In this document: positions 44,338 to 64,000 of the stretch, piece after piece
Position numbering within the stretch: position 1 is the first letter of the stretch
Layout of the letters: the number at the start of each line of letters is the position of its first letter
NCBI GenBank assembly: GCA_021325515.1
Contig: JAJPHC010000030.1
Location: forward strand, 1 to 64,000
From: Acidobacteriota bacterium
GTDB taxonomy: Bacteria; Acidobacteriota; Thermoanaerobaculia; Gp7-AA8
Direction of reading: 5' to 3'
Length of the DNA stretch: 64,000 bases
Position numbers and translations under genes: made by a program
Notes under the pieces: generated by a model
What the model was told of the DNA's origin: nothing
The model's input: only the letters and a program-made list of their open reading frames with translations
Databases searched by the model: none

Positions 44338-47300
44338 ATGAAAAAAATCATTCTGCGCATCCTGCCGTTGATCTCCCTTCTTTACGGTGCCGGCACCCTT
44401 CATGCGCAAGTCACCTTCGACGCCGCATCGAACGCCACACCGGCTACAGCTTCGGCAGCCAATCCGGTCCTCGTTCAGTGGAACCACACGGTCGGCCTGT
44501 CGAAGAAGCCTTATCTGGTCGTCAGCGTCGCCATCGATCGCTCCGGTAGTGCCAACCCGGCCGTCACCGGCGTCATCTGGGGCAACGAGGCTGGCGGACC
44601 GACCCAGAACATGGTGCTGCTCGGCGCGATCAACAACGGGAGTGTGGTTCGCTCCGAGCTTTGGGGGTTGTCCAATCCAACGCCGGGCACCCATCAGATC
44701 CAGGTTTCCGTGAGCAACACCGGGGCGGCTACGATTGCCGTCGTCGCCGGTGCTAAGTCCTTCTTCAACGTGTTCCAGACTGCTGCAGCGAGTACAGCGG
44801 TCACGGCCATCGGTACTTCGCTGACGCCCAGCGTGGCGGTGACGAACGGAGCGTTCGACTACGTTGTCGACTCGGTTGCCTACAACGGAAACTCGGCACT
44901 CACTCCCGGCGGCTCGCAAACGAACGCATACAACGTCCCAAACGCTGCTCCGGCCTTTTCAGGTGCCGGCAGCACCCGGACGGGCGCCAACAACGTCACG
45001 ATGTCGTGGACAGCGACCGGCGCAGCACAGGCGTGGGCGACGGTCGCGGTAGCGCTCAAATCGGCGACTCCTCAGATCGTCTTCGATCGAACCAGCAACA
45101 ACACCTTCAGCGGGAACACGAACGGCTTTACCGGCTCGTGGAATCACACGGTGACGAATGCTGCGAACCGGATCCTCGTCGTCGGTGTTTCTCTCGATCG
45201 CTCGGGCAACGCCAACGTTCAGGTCTCCGGCGTGCGCTACGGAACGGAGGGTGGCGGCCCTAACGTCGCGATGACACTCATTCCGGGAACAGCAGTCAAC
45301 AACGGGACCGCGGTCCGGGTGGAGATGTACTACCTTCTGAACCCGTTACCCGGAAACCATCAGATCACGGTCACCGTTCAGAACACGAGCAACGTCAATG
45401 TAACGGTGATCGCTGGTGGCCAATCCTTCAGCAACATCGATCAGTCCAATCCGTTTGGAACGGTCGCCTCAGCCACGGGCAATTCGGCGACACCAACGGT
45501 AGCGGTCACGAACTCCGCATACGACTACGTCGTCGATGAACTTGCGTTCAACGGGAACACTGCGCAGATCGAAGGAGCGCAGCAGGACCGCCGCTACGCG
45601 AACAACACGAATACGCTGACGAACTTCGCAGGTGCAGGCAGCGGTTCGCGGGGCTATCTCAACACGACCATGAGCTGGTCCAACGCTACGGCAACCTCGC
45701 AGAACTGGGCGCTCGTGGCGGTTCCGCTCCATCAGGTCACAGTCGGTCTGCAGAAGACTGCATCCGCGGACGTCATCAAGCTCGGTGGATCGATCACGTA
45801 CACGATCACCGCGACGAACTACACGAATGCCGCGGTCAACAACGTGACGATCACCGACAACCTGCCGGCAGGCTCGGCCTTCGTCTCGCAAACTGGTTGC
45901 GCTGGTACGGGACCAGTGACCTGCAACATCGGCACGCTGGGAGCCAACGCGGTATCGGCGCCGATCACGATCACCATCACGCCGAATTCCGCCGGCACCA
46001 CTTCGAACAACGCGACGCTGACCTACACAGGTGCGGCAACGGCGATCTCCTCGGAGACCGTCAACACGCTGGTGGAAGGCCGCGTCTGTGCGACGCCCGG
46101 CAAAGACGGCGCGGGTGGCACACTCGCAGGTATCAAGAATGATTACTGGCCGGGAACGTCGAGCCCCGTTGCCGGCGCAACGACGATGACGATCGGCGCG
46201 CGCGTGGGAGGAGGCGGCGGCAATACGATCAGCGCCGGCGATCTCCTCATCCTGATGCAGATGCAGGACGCCGCGTTCGACACGACGAACGACGAGACCT
46301 ACGGCGAAGGCACAGGCTCGACGAAAGCCACGGGTACCGGCAGCGGCGCGGCCACGACGCTCAACAACGCGGGCCGTTGGGAATACGTGATCGCCGCAAA
46401 CAGCGTGGGCGCCGGCGGCGGCACTCTCAACATCAATGGCGGTGGTGCAGGTGGCGGAACGCTCTATGGCTACACGAGCCAATCGTTCGCGACCACGACT
46501 ACTCAGGGACAGCGGACATGGCAGGTCATCCGCGTTCCGCAATACACGACGGCAACGCTCAGCTCGACGCTGATGGCGCTTCCATGGAACGGCTCGACGG
46601 GCGGTGTGCTCGCCATCGACGTGAGCGGCACGCTCTCCCTGGGAGGCGCAACGGTATCCGTCAACGGACTCGGGTTCCGAGGAGGCGCGGGCCGCGTCCT
46701 CGGGGGCGACGCAACAGCGGGCCTTGCGGCCACGGACTTCCGCACCCTTGCGACACTGACGACCAACGGATCGAAGGGCGAAGGCATCACCGGCACTCCG
46801 CGCTACGTCTATCAGAGCGGCGCAAACATCGGAGCTCCGGGCGCCAACAGTGCGCTCGACACAGGTGTCGAAGGATATGTCGGCGGCAGCTATGGCCGCG
46901 GCGCACCGGGAAACTCCGGCGGCGGTTCGACCGATGGTGATCCTCCCGGAAATGATGACAACAGCGGCGGCGGTGGCGGCGGCAATGGCGGCAACGGAGG
47001 CGCCGGTGGTTTCGGATGGAACTGCCGATGTGCATCAGGCGGTCAGGGCGGCGGAAGCATCTCGCCGAGTCTGACGCGCATCAGCATGGGCGGCGGCGGC
47101 GGCTCGGGAACGTCGAACAACGGTTCCGCGGCGGATGCAACCGGCGCAGTCATCGCCGACACAGGCGGTCCGAATGCTGCGGGTGCGAATGGTTACTACA
47201 GCAGCGGCGCGAACGGCGGCGGCGTCATCATCATGCGCGCGCTCCAGGCTACCGGAACGGGAACGCTCACCGCGAATGGCTTCAATGCAGCGAACGTCGG

Positions 47301-50300
47301 CCGCGATGGCGGCGGTGGCGGCGGCGCCGGCGGTGCCGTCCTCTTCACCACGCAGGTCGGCACGCTGACCGGTCTCACCGTGCAGGCCAACGGTGGCAAT
47401 GGCGGCAATGCATGGCTGCAGCAGCCCCCGGGCGGCAACCCCGGCGAGCGTCACGGACCGGGCGGAGGCGGTGGCGGCGGATACGTGCTGCTCTCCAGCA
47501 ACACCGCAGCATCCGTGACCGTCAACCCAGGCACGAACGGTCTTACTGATACAGCGAACGACTCCTATGGTGCGCAGCCGGGAACGACTGGCATCGTGCA
47601 GTTCATCACCGGCAACAACGTGCTGCCGGGCGGCGATGGCGCGAGTTGCGCGATCACCGACCTCGCGGTGACGAACACCGACAGCCCCGATCCTGTGATG
47701 GCTGGCAACAACATCACGTACACGCAGACCGTCACGAACAACGGGCCGAGCGCAGCCGACTCCGTCGTCTACATGGCGCCGATTCCGGCGTACTGCACGT
47801 TCCAGTCGGTGAGCGTTCCGGCAGGATGGACCTGCATCACTCCCGCAGTCGGCGGCACGGGAGTCGTCACCTGTACGACGCCGACGCTTGCCAGCGGCGC
47901 GACTGCGAACTTCTCGTTGGTCGTGACGAACACGGCACAGTCGGGCTATGTGATTCCCGAGACGAATTCCGTCTCCTGCAGCACGCCGGATTCGAACCCG
48001 GCGAACAATCAGGCCACGACGACGACGCTCGTCATCTCGCCGCAGGGTGAATACGCCGACATGGCGGTAACCATCAGCGAGAACACCGCGCTGCCAACGC
48101 CCGGCTCGAACATCAATTACACGCAGACCATCACGAACAACGGCAACTTCACGGCCACGACGCCGAGCTATTCGTTCACGACGCCTCCCAACACGACGTT
48201 CCAATCACTGACGCCGCCTGCAGGCTGGACGTGCATCACGCCGGCTGTCGGCGGCACGGGGACGATCAATTGCAGCGCCGCGTCGATGGCGGCAGGCGCA
48301 TCCGTCAGCATGCCGCTGACGCTCAAGGTCAATGCCGGCACTCCGCCGGGAACCGCGATCACCGCAACGCCAAGCGTCTCCAGCGTGACCACGGACACGT
48401 ATCTGCCGAACAACACGGCGAGCGTGACGGCCACCGTCGTCGCGGCCGGCTCGGGCGACCTCGCGATCACGATCTCCAACAGCCCGTCGCCAGTCGCGCC
48501 CGCAGACACCTACACCTACACGGCGATCGCGACGAACAACGGACCTTCGGCATCGCCGAATGTCACGGTGTCGATACCGATCCCGGCCGGAGTCGGGTTC
48601 CGATCGCTAACTCCCCCGGCCGGCTGGGCGTGCGTCACTCCCGCCGTCGGCGCGAGCGGTACGATCACCTGCACGATCGCTTCGCTCGCATCGGGCGCAA
48701 CCGCGACGTTCTCTCCCGTCGTCCAGGTGAATGCCTCGACGGCGAGCGGCACGACGCTCAACTGCACCGCCACGATCAGCACGACAGGCACGGACAGCAT
48801 CGCCGCGAACAACACCGCGTCATGCTCGAACCTCGTCACCGCCGCGTCGAATGCGGACATCGCCATCGTCAAGACCGATTCGCCGGATCCCGTCCAGCAG
48901 TTGCAATACATCACCTACCGGCTCGCGGTGACCAACAACGGTCCCGCCGTCGCCAACAACGTGACGATCAACGATCCGCTGGATGCGACCACGACGCTCA
49001 TTCGCGTCAACCCCAGCGTCGGCACCTGCGCCGGCACCACGACCATCAACTGTTCCCTCGGCTCGCTGGCCGTCGGAAACACGCAGTACGTCGATCTCGT
49101 GGTTCAGGCCAACAGCGCCGGCACGGTGACCAACACTGCCACGGCGGCGACGTCGACCACCGATCCGATCCCCGCCAACAACACTTCCACGGCTCCAACC
49201 ACGGTCGTCACGATCACGCTGGTCCGCCTCCGGACGACGAGCGCCGTGCAGAACAAGGAGCACGTTCTCATCACCTGGCAGACCTCGTTCGAATCGAACA
49301 ACCTCGGCTTCAACCTCTACCGCGACGTCAACGGCGTACGGACGAAGATCAACAAGAAGATCATCGCCGGCTCGGCCCTCGCCACGAAGAAGAACAATCC
49401 GAGCGCCAGCTACTCGTATCGCTACAACGACAAGGTGCCTGCGAATACCTACCCGCAGTACTGGCTGGAAGACGTCGACATCAACGGCACTCTGACGATG
49501 CACGGCCCGATCGTCCCCTCGGGGGGGACGATTCCCGACGGCGAGGACAGCCCCGCGCTGTCCGGCCTGGGAGCCAGCGGCAGCGTGCTGCAGTCGCCGG
49601 TTGGGATCGGCGTGCTGCAGCCCCTGGTTAGACCCGCGCCAACCGACAAACAGACGAAGACGCAGCTCGATCTCGCCTCCGATACCGCGCTCAAGATCTT
49701 CGTCTCCCAGGAAGGCTGGTACCGCATCTCGACGGCGCAGATGACGGCGGCCGGCTTCGATCCGGGCAAGGACGAAAAGAAGCTCTCGCTCTACACGGGC
49801 GGCACCGAGGTGCCGATCGTGGCCGGAAGCGACGGCATCGAGTTCTACGGGCTTCCGCTGGATACCCCCTCGACCGGCGCACGTACCTACTGGCTGCGCG
49901 CCGGCAAGGGCAACGGCGCACGCCTCGACGTCTCGAACGTCAAAGGCGGCGATCCGGTCAGCGGCTCGCTGCCCTTCGTCTACGACCGGAAGGAGCGCTC
50001 CGTCTTCTTCTCCGCTCTGATCAACAACGGCGACGCGACGAATTTCTTCGGCGCGGTCATCGGCAACTGGGGACCGTCCACCGAGGAGTTGATCACCGGT
50101 GCACTCGACCCGGCGTGGGGCGGCAACGCATCGCTGACCATCACGCTTCAGGGCGGGACCGAGCCGATTCGCCACATGGTGGATCTCTCGATCAACGGCC
50201 ACGACATCGGAATCGCCACCCTCGACGATCAGCAGCAGAAGACCCTCACGCTGAGTTTCCCGCAATCGTTCCTAACCAGCGGCAGCAACACCCTCTCGAT

Positions 50301-51627
50301 GATCGCGCTCAACGGTGACAACGACATCAGCGTCGTCGCCGATGTGCGCCTCACGTATCAGCACCTCCTGACGGCCGACAATGGCCAGCTCGAGATCGCG
50401 GTGCCGGGCGGGCGTGCCGTCAGCGTCAGCGGCTTCACCAGCAGCGCAGTCCGTGCGATCGACGTCACCAATCCGGAAAATCCGGTGGAACTGCAGACCA
50501 CGGTCGCGAACGGCACGGCGACGTTTACACCGGCAGCCTCGGGCTCGCGCAGCGTGCTCGTCTTCGACGCTTCGCGGATCCTTTCGAACGCGGAGCTCGC
50601 GCTCAACCGGCCATCCTCATGGAGCGATGGAAAATCGGGCGCCGATCTGCTCATCATCACCAATCCGCTCTTCAGTTCCGCGGCATCGTCGCTGGTTGCC
50701 GCGAAACAGCGCGAGGGAGTTCGCGCCGCGGTCGTCGATATCGACGACGTCTACGACGAGTCCAACTTCGGCGTCCGCGATCCGCAGGCCATCCGCGCGT
50801 TCCTCCGGAATGCGGCGCAATGGAAGACCCCGCCGCGCTGGGTGCTCCTCCTCGGCGACGCCAGTTTCGATCCGCGCAATTACCTCGAGATGGGAGCGTA
50901 TGACTTCGTTCCCACGATGCTCATGCCGACGGCGTACATGAAGACCGCGTCGGATGACGCGCTCACCGATTTCGACGGCGACGGCATCGCCGACATTCCA
51001 GTCGGCCGCATTCCTGCGCGAACCGCGGCCGATGCATCGCTCGTCGTCAATCGCATCGCGTCGCGCGGCACGCCGAGCGGCCCCTGGGCCAGCAACGCGC
51101 TGTTCATCGCGGAGCCGGCGTCCGACTTCGACTTCCCCGCAGCCGCACGGGCTGCGGCGGGCAAGCTGCCGCCATCGATCGCCAGCCGCGTGATCGGTTC
51201 CAACGTGGCTTCCGCGATGAATGACGGTGCGCTGCTCGTCGATTTCATCGGTCACGGATCTGTCGAGCTCTGGGGCGAGCCGCTGCTCTACACCTCGGCC
51301 GACGCGACTGCATCGACCAACGCCAATCGCCTCCCCTTCGTCGTCGCGATGACGTGCCTCACCGGCTTCTTCCACGATCTCTACACGACGAGCATGGCCG
51401 AAGCGCTGCTGCAGGCACCCAACGGAGGAGCGATCGCCGTCTGGGGCTCGTCGACGCTCACAGAGCCCGATCAGCAGGCGTTGATGAACAACGAGCTGAT
51501 GCGCCAGCTCTTCACACCGGGTGTCACGATCGGAGAGGCTGCACGCCGGGCGAAGATGGCGACCGCCGATCGCGATGTGAGAACGTCGTGGATTCTCTTC
51601 GGAGATCCTTCGATGAAGATCAAGTGA
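44338..51627 (+). CDS. Giant secreted protein with C-terminal gingipain-type (C25) protease domain
   Basis: 2429 residues. Signal peptide (~1-22, YGAGTLHAQV). Two ~220-residue N-terminal repeats start near WNHTV. A DUF11 domain lies near 470-590, a very Gly-rich region at ~620-1100, and further DUF11 repeats at ~1105-1620. A linker (VLITWQTSFESNNLGFNLYR) leads to a caspase-like Peptidase_C25 domain (~2100-2429), with catalytic His 2306 (IGHGS) and Cys 2340 (MTCLTGF) both present. DFDGDGIADIPVGRI resembles the family's calcium-binding segment. No T9SS C-terminal domain is visible, so the export route differs from gingipains. GAGG precedes the ATG. Confidence 0.9.
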   Translation: MKKIILRILPLISLLYGAGTLHAQVTFDAASNATPATASAANPVLVQWNHTVGLSKKPYLVVSVAIDRSGSANPAVTGVIWGNEAGGPTQNMVLLGAINNGSVVRSELWGLSNPTPGTHQIQVSVSNTGAATIAVVAGAKSFFNVFQTAAASTAVTAIGTSLTPSVAVTNGAFDYVVDSVAYNGNSALTPGGSQTNAYNVPNAAPAFSGAGSTRTGANNVTMSWTATGAAQAWATVAVALKSATPQIVFDRTSNNTFSGNTNGFTGSWNHTVTNAANRILVVGVSLDRSGNANVQVSGVRYGTEGGGPNVAMTLIPGTAVNNGTAVRVEMYYLLNPLPGNHQITVTVQNTSNVNVTVIAGGQSFSNIDQSNPFGTVASATGNSATPTVAVTNSAYDYVVDELAFNGNTAQIEGAQQDRRYANNTNTLTNFAGAGSGSRGYLNTTMSWSNATATSQNWALVAVPLHQVTVGLQKTASADVIKLGGSITYTITATNYTNAAVNNVTITDNLPAGSAFVSQTGCAGTGPVTCNIGTLGANAVSAPITITITPNSAGTTSNNATLTYTGAATAISSETVNTLVEGRVCATPGKDGAGGTLAGIKNDYWPGTSSPVAGATTMTIGARVGGGGGNTISAGDLLILMQMQDAAFDTTNDETYGEGTGSTKATGTGSGAATTLNNAGRWEYVIAANSVGAGGGTLNINGGGAGGGTLYGYTSQSFATTTTQGQRTWQVIRVPQYTTATLSSTLMALPWNGSTGGVLAIDVSGTLSLGGATVSVNGLGFRGGAGRVLGGDATAGLAATDFRTLATLTTNGSKGEGITGTPRYVYQSGANIGAPGANSALDTGVEGYVGGSYGRGAPGNSGGGSTDGDPPGNDDNSGGGGGGNGGNGGAGGFGWNCRCASGGQGGGSISPSLTRISMGGGGGSGTSNNGSAADATGAVIADTGGPNAAGANGYYSSGANGGGVIIMRALQATGTGTLTANGFNAANVGRDGGGGGGAGGAVLFTTQVGTLTGLTVQANGGNGGNAWLQQPPGGNPGERHGPGGGGGGGYVLLSSNTAASVTVNPGTNGLTDTANDSYGAQPGTTGIVQFITGNNVLPGGDGASCAITDLAVTNTDSPDPVMAGNNITYTQTVTNNGPSAADSVVYMAPIPAYCTFQSVSVPAGWTCITPAVGGTGVVTCTTPTLASGATANFSLVVTNTAQSGYVIPETNSVSCSTPDSNPANNQATTTTLVISPQGEYADMAVTISENTALPTPGSNINYTQTITNNGNFTATTPSYSFTTPPNTTFQSLTPPAGWTCITPAVGGTGTINCSAASMAAGASVSMPLTLKVNAGTPPGTAITATPSVSSVTTDTYLPNNTASVTATVVAAGSGDLAITISNSPSPVAPADTYTYTAIATNNGPSASPNVTVSIPIPAGVGFRSLTPPAGWACVTPAVGASGTITCTIASLASGATATFSPVVQVNASTASGTTLNCTATISTTGTDSIAANNTASCSNLVTAASNADIAIVKTDSPDPVQQLQYITYRLAVTNNGPAVANNVTINDPLDATTTLIRVNPSVGTCAGTTTINCSLGSLAVGNTQYVDLVVQANSAGTVTNTATAATSTTDPIPANNTSTAPTTVVTITLVRLRTTSAVQNKEHVLITWQTSFESNNLGFNLYRDVNGVRTKINKKIIAGSALATKKNNPSASYSYRYNDKVPANTYPQYWLEDVDINGTLTMHGPIVPSGGTIPDGEDSPALSGLGASGSVLQSPVGIGVLQPLVRPAPTDKQTKTQLDLASDTALKIFVSQEGWYRISTAQMTAAGFDPGKDEKKLSLYTGGTEVPIVAGSDGIEFYGLPLDTPSTGARTYWLRAGKGNGARLDVSNVKGGDPVSGSLPFVYDRKERSVFFSALINNGDATNFFGAVIGNWGPSTEELITGALDPAWGGNASLTITLQGGTEPIRHMVDLSINGHDIGIATLDDQQQKTLTLSFPQSFLTSGSNTLSMIALNGDNDISVVADVRLTYQHLLTADNGQLEIAVPGGRAVSVSGFTSSAVRAIDVTNPENPVELQTTVANGTATFTPAASGSRSVLVFDASRILSNAELALNRPSSWSDGKSGADLLIITNPLFSSAASSLVAAKQREGVRAAVVDIDDVYDESNFGVRDPQAIRAFLRNAAQWKTPPRWVLLLGDASFDPRNYLEMGAYDFVPTMLMPTAYMKTASDDALTDFDGDGIADIPVGRIPARTAADASLVVNRIASRGTPSGPWASNALFIAEPASDFDFPAAARAAAGKLPPSIASRVIGSNVASAMNDGALLVDFIGHGSVELWGEPLLYTSADATASTNANRLPFVVAMTCLTGFFHDLYTTSMAEALLQAPNGGAIAVWGSSTLTEPDQQALMNNELMRQLFTPGVTIGEAARRAKMATADRDVRTSWILFGDPSMKIK

Positions 51628-52615: not shown

Positions 52616-54078
52616 CCCGCCTCGCCTCTCTTCTCGTTCCGATGTTTCCTCTCGCCGCGCGTTTGCGAAGCGAGCCGGAGCTGCTCGAAGAGGCGCTGGC
52701 CATCGTCGAAGGGAACGGGAACAACGCGCACGTCGTCGCCGCGACGCGACGCGCGCGCCGAAAAGGGATTCACGCCGGCCTCTCGCTCGCACAGGCCCGC
52801 TCGATTCTGCCGAAGCTCATCGCGCGCGGACGCGATACGGAGTGCGAGCGCACCGCACAGGAGGCGCTGCTCGAAGTCGCGGAGACGTTCTCGCCTCGCA
52901 TCGAAGATGCCGGCGAAGGGATCGTCTTCATCGACATCAGCGGCACGGAGCGCCACTTCCCCTCCGAGCGCGAGCTCGCGCTCGCGGCGATTCGCGCATG
53001 CGATGCCGTGGGTTTGCCCGCGCGATGCGGGATCGCTTCGAGCAAGCTCGCCGCGCGCATCGCAGCGGAGCTGCCAAAATCTCCCACCATCGTCGAGCGT
53101 GGCGGCGAAGCGGCGTTTCTCGCGCCTCTGCCGCTCGTGCGTCTGTCGCCGGAGCTCGATGCCGCCGCAACGCTGCAGCGCTGGGGACTGACCTCGATCG
53201 GCGAGCTCGCCCACCTTCCCGAAAGCGAAGTCGCCACACGCCTCGGCGAGCTCGGACGCGAATTGCACTACGCCGCGCGCGGCATCGATCCCCGTCCGCT
53301 GATTCCGCGCGGGCTCCCTCCCGACTTCCGCGAGGGAATGGATCTCGAGTGGCCGCTCGTCGCGCTCGATCCATTTCTCTTCATCGCCAACGCCGCACTC
53401 GATCGCCTGGCGAAGCGCCTCGAGTTCCAGGGCTTCGCCTGCCGTCGTCTCGAGCTGACGCTGACGCTCGATCCCGATGGCTACGACGCGCGCGCCATCG
53501 ATCTTCCCGCGCCGACCCGCGACGTGAAGACGATGCTGACGCTCATCCGCCTCGAGCTGGAGAAGAAAGCGCCCGGAGCGCCGGTCACAGGTTTCTCTTT
53601 CGTCGCGATTCCCGATCGCCCGCGCCGCGCGCAGCTCTCGCTGTTCGGCCCCGCGGCACTCTCGCCGGAGAAACTCGCCACGACGATCGCACGCCTGATC
53701 TCGATGCTCGGCGAAGAGCGCGTCGGCATGCCGCAGACCGTCGACGGCACTCTCCCCGATCGCTACGCAATCGCGCCCTACGATCCGCCGCCGCCACCCG
53801 ACATCGCGCGCCCTCCGCGGAAATCGCGAGGACTGGTCGCAGTGCGCGTGTTCCGCCCGCCGATTCCAGTGGAGGTGATCGTCCGCGATGGACACTTCAT
53901 CGCCTTGAAAGGCGAGATCTCCGGCGATGTCGTGCTCTCCTCCGGCCCCTGGCCCGTGGAAGAAGGATGGTGGAAGGAAACGCCGTCATTTCGCGAGTAC
54001 TGGGACGTGGAGATTCCGAGCGGAGTCTACAGGGTGTATCGGGATGTCGAGTGGATCGTGGATGCGCGGTATGAGTAG
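52612..54078 (+). CDS. imuB: ImuB, Y-family polymerase-like mutagenesis protein
   Basis: 488 residues from the ATG at 52612. Y-family polymerase fold, but the first catalytic acidic motif is missing (LLVPMF where DinB has an acidic pair), the hallmark of ImuB, which acts as a clamp-binding adaptor rather than a polymerase. IVFIDISGTERHF and LGELGRELHYAARGID mark the palm and helix-hairpin-helix regions, and a long C-terminal extension is present. It is coupled to imuA. dnaE2 follows after an inserted element. Confidence 0.87.
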   Translation: MTRLASLLVPMFPLAARLRSEPELLEEALAIVEGNGNNAHVVAATRRARRKGIHAGLSLAQARSILPKLIARGRDTECERTAQEALLEVAETFSPRIEDAGEGIVFIDISGTERHFPSERELALAAIRACDAVGLPARCGIASSKLAARIAAELPKSPTIVERGGEAAFLAPLPLVRLSPELDAAATLQRWGLTSIGELAHLPESEVATRLGELGRELHYAARGIDPRPLIPRGLPPDFREGMDLEWPLVALDPFLFIANAALDRLAKRLEFQGFACRRLELTLTLDPDGYDARAIDLPAPTRDVKTMLTLIRLELEKKAPGAPVTGFSFVAIPDRPRRAQLSLFGPAALSPEKLATTIARLISMLGEERVGMPQTVDGTLPDRYAIAPYDPPPPPDIARPPRKSRGLVAVRVFRPPIPVEVIVRDGHFIALKGEISGDVVLSSGPWPVEEGWWKETPSFREYWDVEIPSGVYRVYRDVEWIVDARYE

Positions 54079-54094
54079 CTACCTATTGTGGATT

Positions 54095-54557
54095 AAAAGC
54101 GAAATGCAGAACGCAGAACGCAGAATGAAGAATTGAGAATGAAAGGCGTGCAAGACATTCACGAACGCGTTTTCGAATTCGCATGCCGCATCGTGCGGCT
54201 GCATCGTGAGTTGATTCACATCCGTGGTACGAACCGCGTCGCCGCAAATCAGCTGCTCCGTTCCGGAACCGGAATCGGATCGAACCTCGAAGAGGCGAAG
54301 GCAGCGCAGAGCAAACCAGATTTCATTGCAAAAACACGAATCTCGCTAAAGGAAGCACGCGAATCAAATTATTGGCTACGCCTGATCGAGGCAACGGAGA
54401 AACTTACGCCCGATCGCATCCACCCACTTGTTCAAGAGTCGCATGAAATCGTGGCAATCCTCACATCGATCGTTAAAAGCGCAAGCACTCCCAGTTCTTA
54501 ATTAATTCTTCATTCTGCGTTCTGCGTTCTGCGTTCTGCGTTCTGCATTTCGCTTTT
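54095..54557 (+). mobile_element. Small element with heptamer-built terminal inverted repeats carrying a four-helix-bundle gene
   Basis: The left end (54095-54134, 40 nt) and the right end (54504-54557, 54 nt) are inverted copies: AAAAGCGAAATGCAGAACGC opens the left and the complement closes the right. The right end has two extra GCAGAAC/GTTCTGC heptamers (five against three). The only gene inside reaches from 5 nt after the left repeat to 2 nt before the right one. No target duplication was identified. It sits between imuB and dnaE2. Confidence 0.75.
54139..54501 (+). CDS. Four-helix-bundle protein (S23/TIGR02436 family)
   Basis: 120 residues from the ATG at 54139. Family pattern: an early VFEFACRIVRLHREL helix, LLRSGTGIGSNLEEAKAAQS, FIAKTRISLKEARESNYWLRL and a final helix. 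The family was first met in intervening sequences of 23S rRNA genes and includes the diversity-generating-retroelement accessory protein Avd; its own function is unknown. Base use is more AT-rich than the flanking imu and dnaE2 genes, consistent with transfer. Inverted heptamer repeats flank it tightly. Confidence 0.88.
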   Translation: MKGVQDIHERVFEFACRIVRLHRELIHIRGTNRVAANQLLRSGTGIGSNLEEAKAAQSKPDFIAKTRISLKEARESNYWLRLIEATEKLTPDRIHPLVQESHEIVAILTSIVKSASTPSS

Positions 54558-54567
54558 CGTCCCCCCC

Positions 54568-57500
54568 ATGCCCTCATTAAAAATCACGTACGGCCCTCCC
54601 CTCTCCGGCGAATACGACGCGCTGAACTACGTCAACTCTGTCCTCAACAAAAAGCCCAAGGAAGAAACCCACAAACGCGTAACGACCACAAAACGCCCCT
54701 ACGCAGAACTGAGAGCGGCCTCCTCCTTCTCCTTCCTCGAGGCCGCCTCTCTTCCCGAGGACCTCATCGAAACGGCGGCGGACAACAGCATTCCGGCGAT
54801 GGCCATCGTCGATCGCAATGGTGTCTATGGCGCGCCGCGCTTCTACACCGCGGCGAAGAAGGCGGGCATCAAGGCGCTGGTCGGCTCGGAGCTCGTCATG
54901 GACGACAACCGCCGCGTCACGCTGCTCGTCGGGAGCCGCGCCGGTTACAAAAATCTCTGCAGGCTCATCACCGCCGGCGCGATGAATCATCCCAAGGGCG
55001 AGGCGCGCTACACGTGGAAGCTCCTCGAAGAGTACGCCGCGGGGCTGCACTGCCTCACGCGCGACGACGAAGCGACGATCGACAAGCTCGCCGGCATCTT
55101 CCAGGGCCGCACGCATGTCGAGCTGCAGCGGCATTTCATCCGCGAGGAAGAGCACCGCAATCAACGGATGATGACTCTCGCGCGCCGCATGCGCCTCCCG
55201 CTCATCGCGACCAACGGCGTCCGCTACGCGCGCCCCGACGAGAAGGAACTGCTCGACGTTCTCACCTGCATCCGTGAAGGTCAACATGTTGACAAAGCCG
55301 GCCGGCTCCTCGGCATCAATCGCCATCGCCACATCAAGAGTGCCGAGGAGATGTGCGCTCTCTTCAGCGATATCCCGGAAGCCATCGATCACGCCTGGGA
55401 GCTTTCGCAGACGCTCGACTTCACCCTCGCCGATCTCGGCTATCAGTTCCCCGACTATCCGCTGCCGCCCGGCGAAACGAACGACTCCTTCCTCCGCAAG
55501 ATGACGTGGAACGCGGCGAAGGTCCGCTTCCGTCCGCTCACCGCGCGCGCGCAGATGCAGATCGAGAAAGAGCTGAACATGATCCAGAAGCTCGATCTCG
55601 CCGGCTACTTCCTGATCGTCTGGGACATCGTGCAGTTCTGCAACCGCGAGAAGATTCTCGTGCAGGGGCGCGGCTCCGCCGCGAACAGCGCCGTCTGTTA
55701 CGCCCTCGGCATCACCGCCGTCGATCCGGTGAAGATGGATCTCCTCTTCGAGCGCTTCCTCTCCGAAGAGCGCGGCGAATGGCCGGACATCGACCTCGAC
55801 CTTCCCTCCGGCGATCAACGCGAGCGCGTCATTCAACACGTCTATCAGCGCTACGGCGTGCATGGCGCGGCGATGACGGCGAATGTGATCACGTATCGCG
55901 ACCGCTCCGCCGCGCGCGAAGTCGGCAAGGCGCTCGGTTACTCGGCCGAACAGGTCGACAAGCTCTCGAAGACGGTCAGCACCTGGAGCTTCGGCGAGAT
56001 CCGCGAAAAGATCGAATCACTCCCGAACGAGCTTGCCGGCAACGGCTTCGATCCCGAGGATCTGCGCGTGCGGCATTTCATGCGGCTGTATCTGCAGATT
56101 CAGAATCTGCCGCGCCATCTCGGCCAGCACTCCGGCGGCATGGTGATGGCCAAAGGACGTCTCGATGAAGTCGTGCCGCTCGAGCCGGCGTCGATGCCCG
56201 GCCGCGTCGTCATCCAGTGGGACAAGGAAGACTGCGCCGATCTCGGCATCATCAAAGTCGATCTCCTCGGCCTCGGCATGCTCGCCGCGATCGAGCAGAT
56301 GATCCCCACGATCCGGACGAACGAGAAAGTCGACGTCGATCTCGCGCACCTGCCGCAGGACGATCCGAAGGTCTACAGGATGCTCAACGATGCCGACACC
56401 ATCGGCACGTTCCAGGTGGAGAGCCGCGCGCAGATGGCCTCGCTGCCGCGCAATGCGCCGAAGACGTTTTACGACATCGTCGTGCAGGTCGCGATCATCC
56501 GTCCCGGCCCGATCGTCGGCGGCATGATCCGGCCGTTCTTCGACCGGCGTCAGGGAAAGATCCCGGTCGAATATCCGCATCCCTGTCTCGAGCCGATCCT
56601 CGAGCGGACGCTCGGCGTGCCGCTCTTCCAGGAGCAACTGCTGCGCATCGCGATGGTCGCGGCAGGCTTCACTGGCGGTGAAGCCGAGGAGTTGCGGCGC
56701 GCGATGGGCTTCAAGCGGTCGATGCAGCGGATGGTTGAGATCGAGAAGCGGTTGCGGGCCGGCATGACCGAGCGAGGCATCGGTGCCGAGGCTCAGGATC
56801 AGATCGTGAAGTCGATCACGTCGTTCGCGCTGTATGGATTCCCGGAGTCCCATGCGGCGAGCTTCGCACTGATCGCGTACGCGAGCTGCTATCTCAAGGC
56901 GCATCATCCGGCGGCGTTCTACATGGCGCTGCTCAATGCCTGGCCAATGGGCTTCTACCATCCGGCGACGCTGGTGAAGGATGCGCAGCGGCACGGCGTG
57001 GGGATGCTGCCGGCCGATGTGAATCACTCGGGGTGGATGTCGCGCTGGGAAAAAGGCGGCGTGCGGATGGGCCTGCGCTTCATCAAGGGACTGCGTGCGA
57101 CGACCGGCGCTGCGATCGAGCAGGCGCAGCCATTCACCTCCGTCGACGATCTCGCGCGACGCTGCAGGCTTCGCGACGATCAGATGACGAAGCTCGCGGA
57201 TGGCGGAGCGCTCGCGTCTCTCGGACTGACGCGGCGCGCGGCGATGTGGCAGGCGGCGCGAGTCGCGAAACCGGCGGGCGATCTGTTCGAACAACCTGGA
57301 GTGCGGACGTCCGCGCCCGCACATGCTTCCCCTCTACCCGAAATGTCCCCCGTCGAGGAAACGCTCGCCGACTATCGCTCGGCCGAGATCACGACCGGTC
57401 CTCACCTGCTCGAGCACTATCGCACGCAATTGACGCGCGACCACGTCCTCGCCGCCGCCGAGCTGCAGCGCGTCCCCAACGGCAGCCGCGTTCTAACTGC

Positions 57501-57756
57501 CGGCGCGGTGATCGTCCGCCAGCGTCCCGGCACCGCAAAGGGATTCGTCTTTCTCACGCTCGAAGACGAGACCGGACTCTCGCAGGCCATCGTCAATCCG
57601 AAGCTCTTCGCCGAATGCCGCTCCACGATCCTCGGCCACTCAGGCCTGATCGTCGAAGGCATCGTGCAGAACGGCGAAGGGCAGGCCTCGGTGCGCGCCG
57701 AGCGCTTCTGGCCCCTCGAGGGATTGCACGACGTTCAGAGCCACGATTTTCATTAA
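54568..57756 (+). CDS. dnaE2: Error-prone DNA polymerase III alpha subunit DnaE2
   Basis: 1062 residues. PHP domain starting at YAELRAASSFSFLEAAS, polymerase core with the catalytic acidic residues D407, D409 and D411 in PDIDLDLPSGD, helix-hairpin-helix and OB regions, ending in the DnaE2-typical SHDFH. It extends primers past lesions together with ImuA/ImuB. The first ~44 residues are not conserved and the ATG follows seven C with no Shine-Dalgarno, just 10 nt after the inserted element, so the native start may have been altered. Residues ~911-921 come from a hairpin repeat. Confidence 0.95.
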   Translation: MPSLKITYGPPLSGEYDALNYVNSVLNKKPKEETHKRVTTTKRPYAELRAASSFSFLEAASLPEDLIETAADNSIPAMAIVDRNGVYGAPRFYTAAKKAGIKALVGSELVMDDNRRVTLLVGSRAGYKNLCRLITAGAMNHPKGEARYTWKLLEEYAAGLHCLTRDDEATIDKLAGIFQGRTHVELQRHFIREEEHRNQRMMTLARRMRLPLIATNGVRYARPDEKELLDVLTCIREGQHVDKAGRLLGINRHRHIKSAEEMCALFSDIPEAIDHAWELSQTLDFTLADLGYQFPDYPLPPGETNDSFLRKMTWNAAKVRFRPLTARAQMQIEKELNMIQKLDLAGYFLIVWDIVQFCNREKILVQGRGSAANSAVCYALGITAVDPVKMDLLFERFLSEERGEWPDIDLDLPSGDQRERVIQHVYQRYGVHGAAMTANVITYRDRSAAREVGKALGYSAEQVDKLSKTVSTWSFGEIREKIESLPNELAGNGFDPEDLRVRHFMRLYLQIQNLPRHLGQHSGGMVMAKGRLDEVVPLEPASMPGRVVIQWDKEDCADLGIIKVDLLGLGMLAAIEQMIPTIRTNEKVDVDLAHLPQDDPKVYRMLNDADTIGTFQVESRAQMASLPRNAPKTFYDIVVQVAIIRPGPIVGGMIRPFFDRRQGKIPVEYPHPCLEPILERTLGVPLFQEQLLRIAMVAAGFTGGEAEELRRAMGFKRSMQRMVEIEKRLRAGMTERGIGAEAQDQIVKSITSFALYGFPESHAASFALIAYASCYLKAHHPAAFYMALLNAWPMGFYHPATLVKDAQRHGVGMLPADVNHSGWMSRWEKGGVRMGLRFIKGLRATTGAAIEQAQPFTSVDDLARRCRLRDDQMTKLADGGALASLGLTRRAAMWQAARVAKPAGDLFEQPGVRTSAPAHASPLPEMSPVEETLADYRSAEITTGPHLLEHYRTQLTRDHVLAAAELQRVPNGSRVLTAGAVIVRQRPGTAKGFVFLTLEDETGLSQAIVNPKLFAECRSTILGHSGLIVEGIVQNGEGQASVRAERFWPLEGLHDVQSHDFH
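57297..57330. repeat. GTGCGGACG hairpin repeat inside dnaE2
   Basis: TGGAGTGCGGACGTCCGC followed by GCCCGCACATGCTTCC matches the intergenic family at 32265 (TGGAGTGCGGACGCCTCGTC, then CGCACATCGTTC). It is in frame and encodes VRTSAPAHAS in the linker before the OB-fold. Confidence 0.75.
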
Positions 57757-58912: not shown

Positions 58913-60946
58913 ATGCTTCGGTCCTTTCTCGCGCCCCTTTGTCTGCTCCTCGTGTGTACTCCGCTGCTCGCTGAAGGCAGCAGCACGATCTCAGGAACGA
59001 TCTATCTCGATCCGCCTGCGCTCGCCGTTCGCGGCCAATTCGTTCCGGCCTCTGCTGTCGTAAAACTGTATCGCGAGGATGGGACGGCCGTTGCGGCGAC
59101 GAGCGCCGCGAGCGATGGGCACTATCGCTTCACGCAGGTCCCGGCAGGAACGTACTGGGTCGCGGTCGACTCGAAGTCGATTCGCGGCACGGCCGCGGCG
59201 ACGGCCCATGTCTGGGCGGAGCAGACCTTCGGCCCTCCGGGTGCGGTTTGCGCGCAGACGAATGGCTCGACGCGCACCAACTTCTTCGAAGGCTCGTGTG
59301 TCGGCGGCCGCTCGCTCGCGTCGGACGACGCATCGGCCTTCGCCACTTCTGAACATGTCGCGCGTGTGACGAGCGGCGCCTCCGATGTCGACTTCGCGTT
59401 CAGCTTCAACATCGTGACGTCGATCGAAGACTCGACCGCCGCGCCGATTCAGGGTTCCCTGCGCCAGTTCATCGAGAATGCAAACTCGATCAGTGGTCCC
59501 AACGCCATGCGCTTCGTCCCGCTGACGCGTGCCGTGCAGGCGCAGCAAGCCCCGGGCCTCGGACTCCCCCAGCGCTGGTGGACGATGACGCTCAAGGGTG
59601 CGCTTCCGGTCATCACCGATGCCGGAACGACAATCGATGGCGAAGCGCACAATATCCTCTCCACCGCGTCGGTCATCGACGTGAACGAAGGACGCATCGA
59701 AGAACCGGCCTATCTCCGTCTCGGCGATCGCCAGAACGATCCACGCGAAGAAAAGCCGGAACTGGAGATCGTCGCCGCCGGCAATGAAGGCTTCGTCTGC
59801 GATGCAGCGTGCGAAGTGCGCGGTCTCGCGATTCATGGCGTTCCGAATGCGATCGTCACACGTGCCGATGCGCGCATCGAGCAGGTCGTCGTCGGCGCGC
59901 ACGCGGACATCGAAGACGGCCCGCGTGCCGGCAACGTCGGCGTGCAGGTCGAGCGCGGAACGACGGCGATGCGTTTCGTCTACATCGTGCAGCAGCAGAC
60001 GGCCGGTGTCGCAGTCGCCGCGAGCGGCGCGCGTGTCGAAGCCGACTATCTGCAGATCATGCGCTGCGGCGCGCCGGCATCGGGTGCCGGCATCGTCGTC
60101 CTATCGGACGGCAGCACGATTCGTCATTCGCGCATTTCCGCCAACTACGGCGCAGGTGTCGTCGTCGGTTCGCCGGAAGGAACGCAGACGGCGAACGGCA
60201 ACGTGATCGAGGACTCGATCATCAGCAACAACCTCGCCGGCATCGTGCTGACGCCGGGATCCTCGCGCAACACGTTCGCGCGCAACCAGATCACCTGGAA
60301 CCGCGTCGGTGGTGTGACGGCATCGCCGTACGGCGCGAATCCGCCGCAGTCCAATCGGATCAGCGCGAACATCTACGATGAAAACGGCGGGCGGCCGATC
60401 GCGCTCAACGCCGAGGAGAAGCGCGACATCCTGGCGACGGCGACCGGAACGTGCGGGCGTATCGACACGATTGCGAACCACGGCATCAACGCGCCGGTCG
60501 TCGCGCGCGCGGAGCGATCGAATGACAAACAGACCGTGACGATCATGGGTAAGGGCTGCCCGGGCCAGACCATCGAGCTTTATCGATCGTACGTCACGTC
60601 CGACATTCGAAAAGCCAAGGACAACTCGCGGCTCATTCGCAAGACGAAGACCGGCGAAACGATCACGATCGACCAGCAGCAGTTGGACTCTTATCCATCC
60701 ATCGGTGAATTCAACTACGTCGCGACGACGGTGGTTGACGCCGACGGCTCATTCGCGGTGACGGTGCCGATCGAGACGGTGGTCCGTACAGGGCGCGCCG
60801 CCACCTCGGACGACGTGATCATCACGAACGAAGAGGCGCTGCGCGGAAACGAGACGGACCGTGCCTACTCTGCGATCGCGATCGATGCCGAGGGAAACAC
60901 CTCGGAGATGAGCGAGCGGAGACGCGTTCACATCTCGGGTCGTTGA
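58913..60946 (+). CDS. Secreted right-handed beta-helix protein with N-terminal CnaB-like domain
   Basis: 677 residues. Signal peptide (~1-20), a CnaB/SdrD-like domain (~24-95; YRFTQVPAGTYWVAVD), then parallel beta-helix repeats (~170-480: e.g. NGNVIEDSIISNNLAGIVLT and SRNTFARNQITWNRVGGV). The C-terminal part (~520-677) carries strand-rich segments with TEGNTSEMS-like ending AEGNTSEMSERRR. The fold suggests polysaccharide binding or lyase-type function, but no catalytic residues are identified. Confidence 0.8.
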   Translation: MLRSFLAPLCLLLVCTPLLAEGSSTISGTIYLDPPALAVRGQFVPASAVVKLYREDGTAVAATSAASDGHYRFTQVPAGTYWVAVDSKSIRGTAAATAHVWAEQTFGPPGAVCAQTNGSTRTNFFEGSCVGGRSLASDDASAFATSEHVARVTSGASDVDFAFSFNIVTSIEDSTAAPIQGSLRQFIENANSISGPNAMRFVPLTRAVQAQQAPGLGLPQRWWTMTLKGALPVITDAGTTIDGEAHNILSTASVIDVNEGRIEEPAYLRLGDRQNDPREEKPELEIVAAGNEGFVCDAACEVRGLAIHGVPNAIVTRADARIEQVVVGAHADIEDGPRAGNVGVQVERGTTAMRFVYIVQQQTAGVAVAASGARVEADYLQIMRCGAPASGAGIVVLSDGSTIRHSRISANYGAGVVVGSPEGTQTANGNVIEDSIISNNLAGIVLTPGSSRNTFARNQITWNRVGGVTASPYGANPPQSNRISANIYDENGGRPIALNAEEKRDILATATGTCGRIDTIANHGINAPVVARAERSNDKQTVTIMGKGCPGQTIELYRSYVTSDIRKAKDNSRLIRKTKTGETITIDQQQLDSYPSIGEFNYVATTVVDADGSFAVTVPIETVVRTGRAATSDDVIITNEEALRGNETDRAYSAIAIDAEGNTSEMSERRRVHISGR

Positions 60947-60951
60947 CGGCC

Positions 60952-61092
60952 GTGGAGCGCGCAAGTCCTCGTCCGCGAGCTGCTGCACTGGGACGACGGC
61001 AAGGTGGAGCGCGGACGCCCTCGTCCGCGAACTGCTGCACTGGGACGACGGCAAGGTGGGGCGCGGACGTCCTCGTCCGCGAGCTGCTGCCG
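60952..61092. repeat. 52-nt tandem repeat containing GCGGACG...CGTCCGCG hairpins
   Basis: Units at 60952-61003, 61004-61055 and a partial third at 61056-61092. Each holds GCGCGGACGxCCTCGTCCGC and CTGCTGCACTGGGACGACGG. It occupies the gap between the beta-helix gene and the peptide-modification cluster, whose last gene ends at 61118. Confidence 0.9.
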
Positions 61093-61117
61093 TCGAGGCA
61101 GCAGGCAACTTCGCTCC

Positions 61118-61504
61118 TCAGGATGAAACGTACTGGCGGCCTGACAATCGCCTGCACGCTCGCAGCAGCGCGAAGATCACAGGCGGCCGGCGGCGCGTCC
61201 GGACGCGGCCGATCAGCGCCGACGCATCGAATGGCTCATCATCTTCCGGCGTGTTGTCGCCGCGCATGACGAAGTGGATTGCTTCCCCCTTCGCGAAGAT
61301 GCGGACGATGCGATGAGCCGTCAGGCCGCGCGACAGACGCGCGAGCACGACGTCGCCGCGGCGGATCGCCGCGGGATTCACGCGCTCGACCTCCAGCAGA
61401 TCGCCGGGGCGGATCGTCGGCAGCATGCTGTCGCCGCTTGCACGGAATCGCGCCGAGGCGCCGGTATCGAGTACATCCTCGATCACGGTTGCCGCGTCGA
61501 TCAT
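61118..61504 (-). CDS. S26-type (signal-peptidase-like) serine peptidase of the peptide-modification cluster
   Basis: 128 residues from the ATG at 61504, which overlaps the kinase stop (ATGA). Catalytic-site pattern: SGDSMLPT with nucleophile S26, RRGDVVLARL, then LTAHRIVRI with H64 in the place used by Ser-His (SipW/ER-type) signal peptidases, and MRGDN. No membrane helix was seen, unlike ordinary signal peptidase I, so it is probably soluble. In this setting it may cleave the leader of the modified precursor. LexA-like S24 is a less likely alternative because no HTH exists. Confidence 0.8.
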   Translation of the reverse strand: MIDAATVIEDVLDTGASARFRASGDSMLPTIRPGDLLEVERVNPAAIRRGDVVLARLSRGLTAHRIVRIFAKGEAIHFVMRGDNTPEDDEPFDASALIGRVRTRRRPPVIFALLRACRRLSGRQYVSS

Positions 61505-62364
61505 GCAGCCTCGCGAACCATGTCGATCGCCGAGCGATCGAGCGTAAAGCGGAACTCGCGCACCGGGACACGCGTCACGATACGGTCGAGCATCGACATC
61601 GTGAACGCGATCGCGCCGGCATCGTGAAAAGGCGGAAACGCGCAGGCGAACAGCCGCGCGATGCCGTCGGCCCTGCTCAATGCACGAAGCTCGTTTTCGG
61701 CGGCCTGCGCCAGGAGATACACGCCCGCGAGCGGCGCGCGCGCCGGCGACGACAGCGACGCCTCGCCGTGCCACGGCGTGCCGTACATCCAGAGCGTTCC
61801 CTCTTCCTCGCGCACGACGACGCGGTCATCGCTCACGATGTCGCGCGCATCGTCGCCCCACAGACGCGCCGTCGTCGACTTCCCCGCCCCCGACTGCCCG
61901 ACGAACAGATGCCCGCGGCCGTGATGATCGACCACACCGCATCCGTGGAGCTCGACGCCGCGCCCGCGCGCGAGCAGATTCGAGAGCAGGACTTCATCCA
62001 GCGGATACGCGAGCGGATCGACCGTGCCGCCGAACACTGCTGCGTCGATGCGGATCGTGCCGCGGGTGAAGTCGTCATTGAAGACCGCGACGTTGTAAGG
62101 GTGATCCGACATCACCTCGGAAAAACAGTCGATGCGGTAGCCGGCCGGATCCTGATAGATGCGCCAGACGCCGCCGGACTCGAAGAGCAGCGGGCCGGCC
62201 GGCGGATCGAAGCGATCGAGATGAAAAATCTCGAGATCGACTTCAGCAGGCGATGAAGGCACGATGAAGCGAGTGACCGGTTCGGAAAACTGACAGGGAA
62301 TCCGCTCGTCGCGGCAGCGGACCGCCAGCGTGATGCCGGCGATCCGCAGGAACGTGTCCGGCAT
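61501..62364 (-). CDS. HprK-like kinase of the peptide-modification cluster
   Basis: 287 residues from the ATG at 62364, 4 nt after the precursor stop. An N-terminal domain (~1-140) precedes an HprK-like kinase core with P-loop GQSGAGKST (156-164), VSDDR (177-181) and GTPWHGEA (~195-202). Such proteins accompany lasso-peptide and PqqD/radical-SAM clusters, and one (the paeninodin kinase) phosphorylates a C-terminal Ser of the precursor. Earlier in-frame ATGs overlap the precursor gene and are less likely. Its stop overlaps the peptidase start. Confidence 0.85.
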   Translation of the reverse strand: MPDTFLRIAGITLAVRCRDERIPCQFSEPVTRFIVPSSPAEVDLEIFHLDRFDPPAGPLLFESGGVWRIYQDPAGYRIDCFSEVMSDHPYNVAVFNDDFTRGTIRIDAAVFGGTVDPLAYPLDEVLLSNLLARGRGVELHGCGVVDHHGRGHLFVGQSGAGKSTTARLWGDDARDIVSDDRVVVREEEGTLWMYGTPWHGEASLSSPARAPLAGVYLLAQAAENELRALSRADGIARLFACAFPPFHDAGAIAFTMSMLDRIVTRVPVREFRFTLDRSAIDMVREAA

Positions 62365-62368
62365 GATT

Positions 62369-62539
62369 CTAGGAACCCGGAGTACTGCAGTTGCCGACAT
62401 TGCGGCACTGCCCGCCGTTCGGCCCGGCGGCAACCGACGACTTGCAGAAACCGAGCACCGCCTCTTCAGGCCGGAGCGGGAAACGCGTCACCGTCGGCTT
62501 CTGATACGTCTTCTTTGCAGCAGGCTTGTTGTTTTCCAT
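62369..62539 (-). CDS. RiPP precursor peptide (56 residues)
   Basis: A small gene between the radical SAM enzyme and the kinase, with GAGGGA just before the ATG, 11 nt after the upstream stop. The basic N-terminal leader carries YQKPTV (12-17), which fits the YxxPx(L/V) motif bound by PqqD-like recognition domains, then PLRPEEAVLG (21-30). The C-terminal part is Gly/Ser/Asn-rich with Cys 32, 45 and 51 and ends in NCSTPGS, the last residue being Ser 56. This leader/core layout, its position and the flanking enzymes support a ribosomally made, modified peptide. The core boundary, after G30, is inferred. Confidence 0.82.
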   Translation of the reverse strand: MENNKPAAKKTYQKPTVTRFPLRPEEAVLGFCKSSVAAGPNGGQCRNVGNCSTPGS

Positions 62540-62550
62540 TGGATCCCTCG

Positions 62551-63816
62551 TCAGCGCGCATGAATGCTACATGCGCCGCAGGTTGAACTTCCACAGGAGG
62601 ATGCATTGACGGCGGGCACCGCATTGCGCGCCGCCTCGAGCGCATCGAAGTTGCGCGAGCGCACCAGCGCCGCGAGCTCGTCGATCACATGCCGCTCGCT
62701 GCTGCCCGGACAATACTCGCAATCGCCATGCTCCGGCACTTCGACGTCGAACATCTCGGCGCGGAGATGCGCGGTCTGGCAGAGAAAATCGACAGGAGTC
62801 TCCGCGTCGCCCGCTTCGAGCTCGCCGTTGGCGGCGCACTGTCCGCACAGCGAGCGCAGCGCGCAGCGCGTGCACTTCGTGATTCGAGATGCCTTCTTCG
62901 CACGGACGCTGCGGAGAAACTTCTCCCACCCTTCGCTGAAGGTCCCGGTCCGCACGTTGTACTCATCGACGTGCGACAACACGCAGATGGTCAGATTTCC
63001 ATAAGGATCGATCGCCCACGAGTTGACGCCGCCGCCGCAGCTGTAGACCTGCGCATCGGCATCGGTCTGCGGCGGAACGGGTGCGCAATCGACGGCGAGC
63101 CGCCGCCACTCCGCGACGCGCTCCGGATCGTCGAGATCGAGCGCGACGATTTCCGCCGGCGAGAGCCGCACTGCGAGCGGGCTGGAGGAGCAGTCGATCC
63201 GCGGATTGATCATCGAATCGAATTTGAACTCGAGTCCCAGCTCCTCGGAGATCGACTTCATCAGCGCGATCTCGTGCACGTTGAGCGAGACGGCAACCGT
63301 CTTCAGCTTCAACGGCAGATTGCGATCGAGCAGCAGCTTGATCCCGCGGAAGCATTTCTCGTACGAGCCGGGGATGCCGGTCAATGCTTCGTAGGTTTCC
63401 TTCGTGCCGCCGTACAGCGTGATCTCGATCGAGAACGGCGGAAGCTCTTTCAGATAGTCCGCGATGCGCTCCGTGATCATCGTGCCGTTCGTGAACAGCG
63501 TGATCAGGAAGCCCTTCTGCTTCGCGTAGGTGTAGATGTCGAGGAAGTCGTGCCGCGCAAAAATCTCGCCGCCGGTGTAGAGCAGCCAGAGGCAACCCAT
63601 GTCCGACAGCTCATCGAGAACGCGCTTGTGATCGTCGAGCGACATCTCGCGCCGGCGCGCGGAGACGTCGTCCATCGGCAGATTGTTGTAGCAATGCGCG
63701 CAATCGAGAGGACAGCGGTCGGTGACTTCGATCGTGCCGTTCACCGGCACGCGCAGCGGGTTCAGCATGTCGTGCAGCGACTTGCTGAATTCTCCGTAGG
63801 TACCACTCTCGATCAT
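62551..63816 (-). CDS. Radical SAM/SPASM peptide maturase
   Basis: 421 residues. The radical SAM cluster motif is C35-x3-C39-x2-C42 (CPLDCAHCY). The SPASM domain has C260 and C278 with G273-x4-C278, then C315-x2-C318-x5-C324-x2-C327 and C346: a full set for auxiliary [4Fe-4S] clusters. After it come CEYC (366-369) and an unusual Cys-rich tail, C408-x4-C413-x2-C416, at the extreme C terminus. It would install a thioether, C-C or epimer-type modification on the precursor encoded next. Its ATG overlaps the stop of the PqqD gene (ATGA). Confidence 0.92.
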   Translation of the reverse strand: MIESGTYGEFSKSLHDMLNPLRVPVNGTIEVTDRCPLDCAHCYNNLPMDDVSARRREMSLDDHKRVLDELSDMGCLWLLYTGGEIFARHDFLDIYTYAKQKGFLITLFTNGTMITERIADYLKELPPFSIEITLYGGTKETYEALTGIPGSYEKCFRGIKLLLDRNLPLKLKTVAVSLNVHEIALMKSISEELGLEFKFDSMINPRIDCSSSPLAVRLSPAEIVALDLDDPERVAEWRRLAVDCAPVPPQTDADAQVYSCGGGVNSWAIDPYGNLTICVLSHVDEYNVRTGTFSEGWEKFLRSVRAKKASRITKCTRCALRSLCGQCAANGELEAGDAETPVDFLCQTAHLRAEMFDVEVPEHGDCEYCPGSSERHVIDELAALVRSRNFDALEAARNAVPAVNASSCGSSTCGACSIHAR

Positions 63817-64000
63817 GACGACACCCGGTTCACGAGCAACGCCTGCTCGAGCTCATCGAGGAGTTGCGTGACATCCGAAGCCGCGGTCTCGCGATCGACT
63901 TCGAATTCTGCGCAGACGGCATCCACGATCGTGTCGACGGCCGCGGGGCCGTCGAGCGTCTGCCAGATGCGGGCGGCAACCGGCGAGAGGACGAAAATCG
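63813..64000 (-). CDS. PqqD-like peptide chaperone (5' part outside window)
   Basis: About 62 C-terminal residues are visible, ending at the stop 63813-63815. The pattern (SPVAARIWQTLDG, TIVDAVCAEFEVD, DVTQLLDELEQALLV) is that of PqqD/RRE domains, which bind the precursor leader and present it to the radical SAM enzyme. The stop overlaps the maturase start by ATGA, so the two are translationally coupled. Confidence 0.85.
   Translation of the reverse strand, partial: IFVLSPVAARIWQTLDGPAAVDTIVDAVCAEFEVDRETAASDVTQLLDELEQALLVNRVSS

Follow-up and report, generated by a model that had tools for sequence, protein, structure and literature searches.

A radical SAM peptide cassette of Acidobacteriota with an HprK-like kinase, predicted to phosphorylate the C-terminal serine of its precursor

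The window analyzed here, 64,000 nucleotides of an Acidobacteriota contig, carries at its right end a compact cassette that is best called an undescribed class of RiPP assembled from known components, namely a radical SAM RiPP joined to a lasso-type C-terminal serine kinase. We consider it probable that the precursor is delivered by PqqD, modified in its core by the radical SAM enzyme, phosphorylated at its C-terminus and released from its leader by an S26-type peptidase, giving an extracellular product tied to a C25 protease. The five open reading frames were all recovered on the minus strand, in the order PqqD, radical SAM, precursor, kinase, peptidase (Table 1). They are separated as closely as an earlier note on this DNA had claimed (ATGA overlaps, or no more than 11 nt between genes): ATGA overlaps join PqqD to the radical SAM gene and the kinase to the peptidase gene, and gaps of 11 nt and 4 nt precede and follow the precursor. 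The ribosome-binding-like site of the precursor is GAGGGA. The cluster does run past the right edge, as had been noted; PqqD crosses position 64000 with only ~35 residues missing, and its contig coordinates are 63813-64106 from an ATG start or 63813-64112 from GTG. Beyond 64000, only this 5' end belongs to the cassette, and neither the window cassette nor the part of the contig read past the edge contains a transporter or regulator. A glutaredoxin/pterin-4a-dehydratase fusion, also on the minus strand, comes next, ~60 nt upstream of PqqD, and is unrelated to the cassette. At the other end, near-identical GC-rich direct repeats (cgtcctcgtccgcgagctgctgc...) occupy 60946-61117, between a converging beta-helix gene and the peptidase gene.

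Table 1. Coordinates of the cassette genes and the C25 protein in the window
Feature	Coordinates	Strand	Basis
PqqD-like leader-binding protein (RRE)	63813..64000 in window, 5' end outside	-	Pfam PqqD
Radical SAM/SPASM peptide maturase, 421 aa	62551..63816	-	Pfam Radical_SAM, cysteine motifs
Precursor peptide, 56 aa	62369..62539	-	conserved family
HprK/PEPCK-fold kinase, 287 aa	61501..62364	-	motifs and AlphaFold2 model
Soluble S26B/S24-type serine peptidase, 128 aa, predicted leader peptidase	61118..61504	-	Pfam Peptidase_S24
Giant secreted DUF11/Peptidase_C25 protein	44338..51627	+	Pfam C25, DUF11; orthologue of cassette-adjacent protein in relatives

PqqD scores above the cut-off of its Pfam family (E 2.2e-17), meeting the criterion of a leader-recognition protein for a radical SAM/SPASM RiPP, and is retained in most cassettes. 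Its counterpart in lasso systems, the PqqD-like B1 protein, is a tight binder of the leader (PMC5067487). The maturase (Radical_SAM, 3.3e-20) has the CxxxCxHC motif and SPASM cysteines; C35, C39, C42, C260, C278, C315, C318, C324, C327 and C346 are invariant in 24 homologues. Its nearest solved structures are the sactipeptide maturase SkfB and PqqE. A Cys-rich C-terminal tail, CGSSTCGACS (CGSxxCGxCS), is common to several homologues, not all. The kinase was taken from the ATG just after the precursor stop; the TTG frame of 310 aa is longer than the likely gene. It keeps the P-loop GQSGAGKS (GxSGxGKS/T), the catalytic H140, and the DDR and GTPWHGE motifs, and its AlphaFold2 model (pLDDT 95.8) matches PEPCK and HPr kinase structures. 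The features of an HprK/PEPCK-fold kinase are thus present (P-loop, catalytic His, Asp pair and fold), and the enzyme is predicted, in the absence of biochemistry, to phosphorylate the C-terminal Ser of the precursor. The peptidase (Peptidase_S24, 2.3e-8) has its Ser, His and Asp positioned as in the SEC11 branch, SEC11 being also the nearest solved structure. It lacks a transmembrane segment (maximum 19-residue hydropathy 0.86) and does not meet the membrane-anchor criterion of S26B. No NCBIfam model reached its cut-off for any cassette protein.

The precursor combines the leader KKxYxKPxxxRxPLRPEEAVLG, which is of the PqqD/lasso (YxxP) type, with a core containing three invariant Cys and a C-terminal Ser. 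The earlier note had read PqqD, a SPASM enzyme and a small Cys-containing peptide as RiPP logic, and the sequence supports this. Six other genomes of the family carry the cassette by tblastn, split over two contigs in one of them, and the small ORF is present in all six. The gene order repeats there and the precursor is conserved as protein, so the cassette is more than a chance assembly. That the 56-residue frame is a real gene was likewise borne out by 23 invariant columns in the alignment of seven family genomes (KK.Y..P...R.PLRP.EAVLGFCK.....G.....C.....C...GS). In an alignment of 37 diverse members P15, C32, C45 and C51 never change and K33 rarely does; the core differs between members in both length and sequence. 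Maturase and kinase are both missing from other near-complete genomes of this family, which makes the cassette an accessory trait.

The refuting condition set by the earlier note, absence of a conserved small ORF from relatives, does not hold: the ORF is conserved at ~56 loci, divided between the phyla Acidobacteriota and Thermodesulfobacteriota. The precursor profile matched 37 of 396 genomes in the former (E 0.01) and 12 of 297 in the latter; a contig scan with the narrow, family-only alignment gave 8 loci only. Around the 36 loci examined, a maturase was present in 35, a kinase in 35, PqqD in 31 and an S26-type peptidase in 25. A second branch of the family consists of W-type precursors (KxWxKPxLxVLxRxRPEEAVLxxCK...; loci L091, L092, L150 and similar), several of which sit in loci with two or more maturases. 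In Thermodesulfobacteriota, 1.5 kb was read to either side of the W-type precursors, and no kinase lay in these flanks. The precursor itself matches no curated NCBIfam model.

Every one of the 42 complete precursors in the first set has a hydroxyl residue at its C-terminus, Ser in 40 and Thr in 2, a regularity that the earlier note does not mention. For comparison, the last residue is Ser in 8.7% and Thr in 2.7% of 947 long open frames from the same sequences, a background that is only rough because these frames include non-coding ones. The ending is also Ser or Thr in 14 of the 15 distinct matches from Thermodesulfobacteriota. Only L153 departs from it, with Pro; that profile match is doubtful and looks spurious. 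Bias of the profile was considered, since its seed sequences all ended in Ser. About 13 precursors whose matches do not reach the final columns of the profile nevertheless have a terminal Ser or Thr, on the unrelated tails RPS, FPS, AKS, ATS and ASS; together with the second phylum, these indicate that the ending is not merely profile bias. We give no p-value, since related genomes do not count as independent observations. In lasso clusters, HprK homologues place a phosphate on the side chain of the C-terminal Ser, and the remainder of the peptide matters little to them; on pseudomycoidin this phosphate is then extended with hexoses by a nucleotidyltransferase (PMC8498205). Four lineages (L066, L069, L078 and kin, L089) have nucleotidyltransferases of the NTP_transf_5 type next to the cassette or not far from it.

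A C-terminal Ser could nonetheless be kept for a reason other than phosphorylation. The kinase might act on another substrate, as HPr kinase and PEPCK relatives do, or serve as a binding or regulatory subunit, leaving the peptide an ordinary ranthipeptide or sactipeptide; loci L064, L071 and L098, in which the precursor occurs with or without a maturase and without a nearby kinase, fit such an arrangement. We regard this as unlikely, though still a serious alternative, given that the Ser/Thr ending is near-universal despite variable tails, that a kinase accompanies nearly every examined locus and that its catalytic residues are intact.

From the gene content and order, conservation, catalytic residues, C-terminal rule and recurrent neighbors observed here, we infer a pathway for which no biochemistry exists at any point, whether for its chemical steps, their order, export or function. 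PqqD would bind the conserved leader and present the precursor to the SPASM enzyme, which is expected to act on the part of the core that surrounds the three invariant cysteines; thioether or C-C cross-links are the most likely outcome. Judging from its lasso counterparts, the HprK-like kinase would phosphorylate the C-terminal Ser, adding a phosphate that may be capped by a nucleotidyltransferase in some lineages. The soluble S26B-type peptidase is presumed to cut off the leader. Leader removal may differ between lineages, since several cassettes have no S26-type gene nearby; nor are the residues of the presumed cleavage site constant. A sharp site matching the signal-peptidase consensus was sought and rejected: VLG/F and VLA/S fit, whereas AVLQ/A and others from loci with an S26-type peptidase do not. 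An extracellular role is probable for the mature peptide, in functional linkage with a giant secreted C25 protease.

The giant protein of the window (Pfam C25 3.6e-74, DUF11 5.8e-73) comprises five DUF11 stretches and a C-terminal, gingipain-like C25 domain with its His and Cys motifs present. Seventeen loci, drawn from nine families, have a secreted giant with a C-terminal Peptidase_C25 domain beside the cassette; of the 396 Acidobacteriota genomes, 136 carry C25 genes. The window orthologue lies 9.5 kb from the peptidase gene, separated from the cassette by imuA/imuB/dnaE2-like mutagenesis genes (51779-57756), a permease and a beta-helix protein, and its C25 domain groups with the cassette-adjacent C25 domains of the family (tree support 100/96). 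A single origin of the cassette-linked C25 domains is unsupported. They are scattered over the C25 tree, forcing at least 6 changes, so the pairing with the cassette arose or was kept repeatedly. In family f30, the S26-type peptidase forms one protein with a Wza-like polysaccharide-export protein, a membrane segment joining the two; such S26/S24-Poly_export/SLBB fusions lie near the cassette at L079:10726-12219 and also in L077, L078, L080, L082 and L084. Exporter-type ABC transporters are close to the cassette in two loci (L065, L067). At L075:750-2321, a cyanobactin-oxidase-like (ThcOx)/nitroreductase protein lies just past the cassette-side C25 gene, which may point to an additional tailoring step there.

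The C25 giants, the export-protein fusion and the ABC exporters favor an extracellular role. They speak against a product that is never secreted and works inside the cell as a cofactor or redox peptide, in the manner of PQQ or mycofactocin, as do the differing lengths and sequences of the core, which are unlike those of a cofactor precursor. Such a product would be consistent with a window cassette that has no transporter, with PqqE among the nearest solved maturases and with the glutaredoxin-type gene upstream; on balance we think it improbable. A more elaborate extracellular product, to which we give little credence, is a cross-linked peptide whose C-terminal phosphoserine links it, through NTP_transf_5, to a sugar or polysaccharide. 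A giant C25 protease dedicated to this surface peptide-glycan conjugate, or else a machine for polysaccharide export, would accompany its export and process it. Consistent with this reading are the S26-transmembrane-SLBB fusion, the NTP_transf_5 neighbors and the C25 giants, none of which demonstrates it.

The nearest named cassette to this kinase-bearing RiPP system is SynChlorMet, which has the same three kinds of protein (ScmC kinase, ScmD PqqD, ScmE/ScmF radical SAM). Similarity is weak, with window scores of 28.9 of 125 for ScmC, 27.7 of 100 for ScmD and 69.4 of 400 for ScmE, and the main type of the present cassette has one maturase, not two, plus an S26-type peptidase. The HPr-rel-A or HprK-related kinase A and B systems of NCBIfam also pair a PqqD-like protein with an HprK-like kinase, but the window proteins reach only 11.6 of 200 bits (kinase) and 22.2 of 35 bits (PqqD). 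HPr-rel-A systems lie near polysaccharide genes, as do some cassettes here; to our knowledge, a radical SAM enzyme and a precursor are not in their definition. Membership in SynChlorMet, GeoRSP, HPr-rel-A or WgkB/C was rejected, all scores being under the curated cut-offs. SPASM maturases of the SkfB, PapB and PqqE types resemble the present enzyme in their radical SAM and SPASM clusters and leader-dependent peptide modification. Unlike sactipeptide, ranthipeptide and PQQ-type systems, this cassette reaches no curated model and adds a kinase and a peptidase, and its bond type is unknown.

Kinase-tailored lasso peptides such as paeninodin and pseudomycoidin are similar in having a PqqD-like protein, an HprK homologue, a C-terminal Ser and sometimes a nucleotidyltransferase (PMC8498205); the present cassette differs from them in its SPASM maturase, S26-type peptidase and three invariant precursor Cys. 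A kinase-bearing lasso cluster, or a degenerate derivative of one, would account for these common parts and the YxxP-type leader, but can practically be dismissed, as the B2 transglutaminase-like leader protease (PF13471) is absent genome-wide, no asparagine-synthetase-like cyclase was noted among the genes listed around the cassettes and a radical SAM enzyme is present instead. Lasso clusters are also the context for HPr kinase in the only paper found to name both HPr kinase and radical SAM (PMC4289311).

The earlier note had proposed an undescribed product class, and this proposal survived: no curated NCBIfam model was reached, and text searches of openly licensed PMC papers, the only literature covered, found no description of this gene combination. 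Its remark that the kinase combination is unusual holds in part; no description was found, but HprK homologues with PqqD-like proteins are known from lasso clusters (PMC8498205), and the named systems SynChlorMet and HPr-rel-A carry related parts.

If the proposed pathway is true, it would define a RiPP class uniting radical SAM chemistry with C-terminal serine phosphorylation. We know of no description of the latter outside lasso peptides. The precursor profile occurs in about one in 11 of the sampled Acidobacteriota genomes, from organisms with few characterized natural products. The C-terminal Ser rule provides a sharp and cheap biochemical handle, and the repeated pairing with the C25 protease suggests a function to look for.
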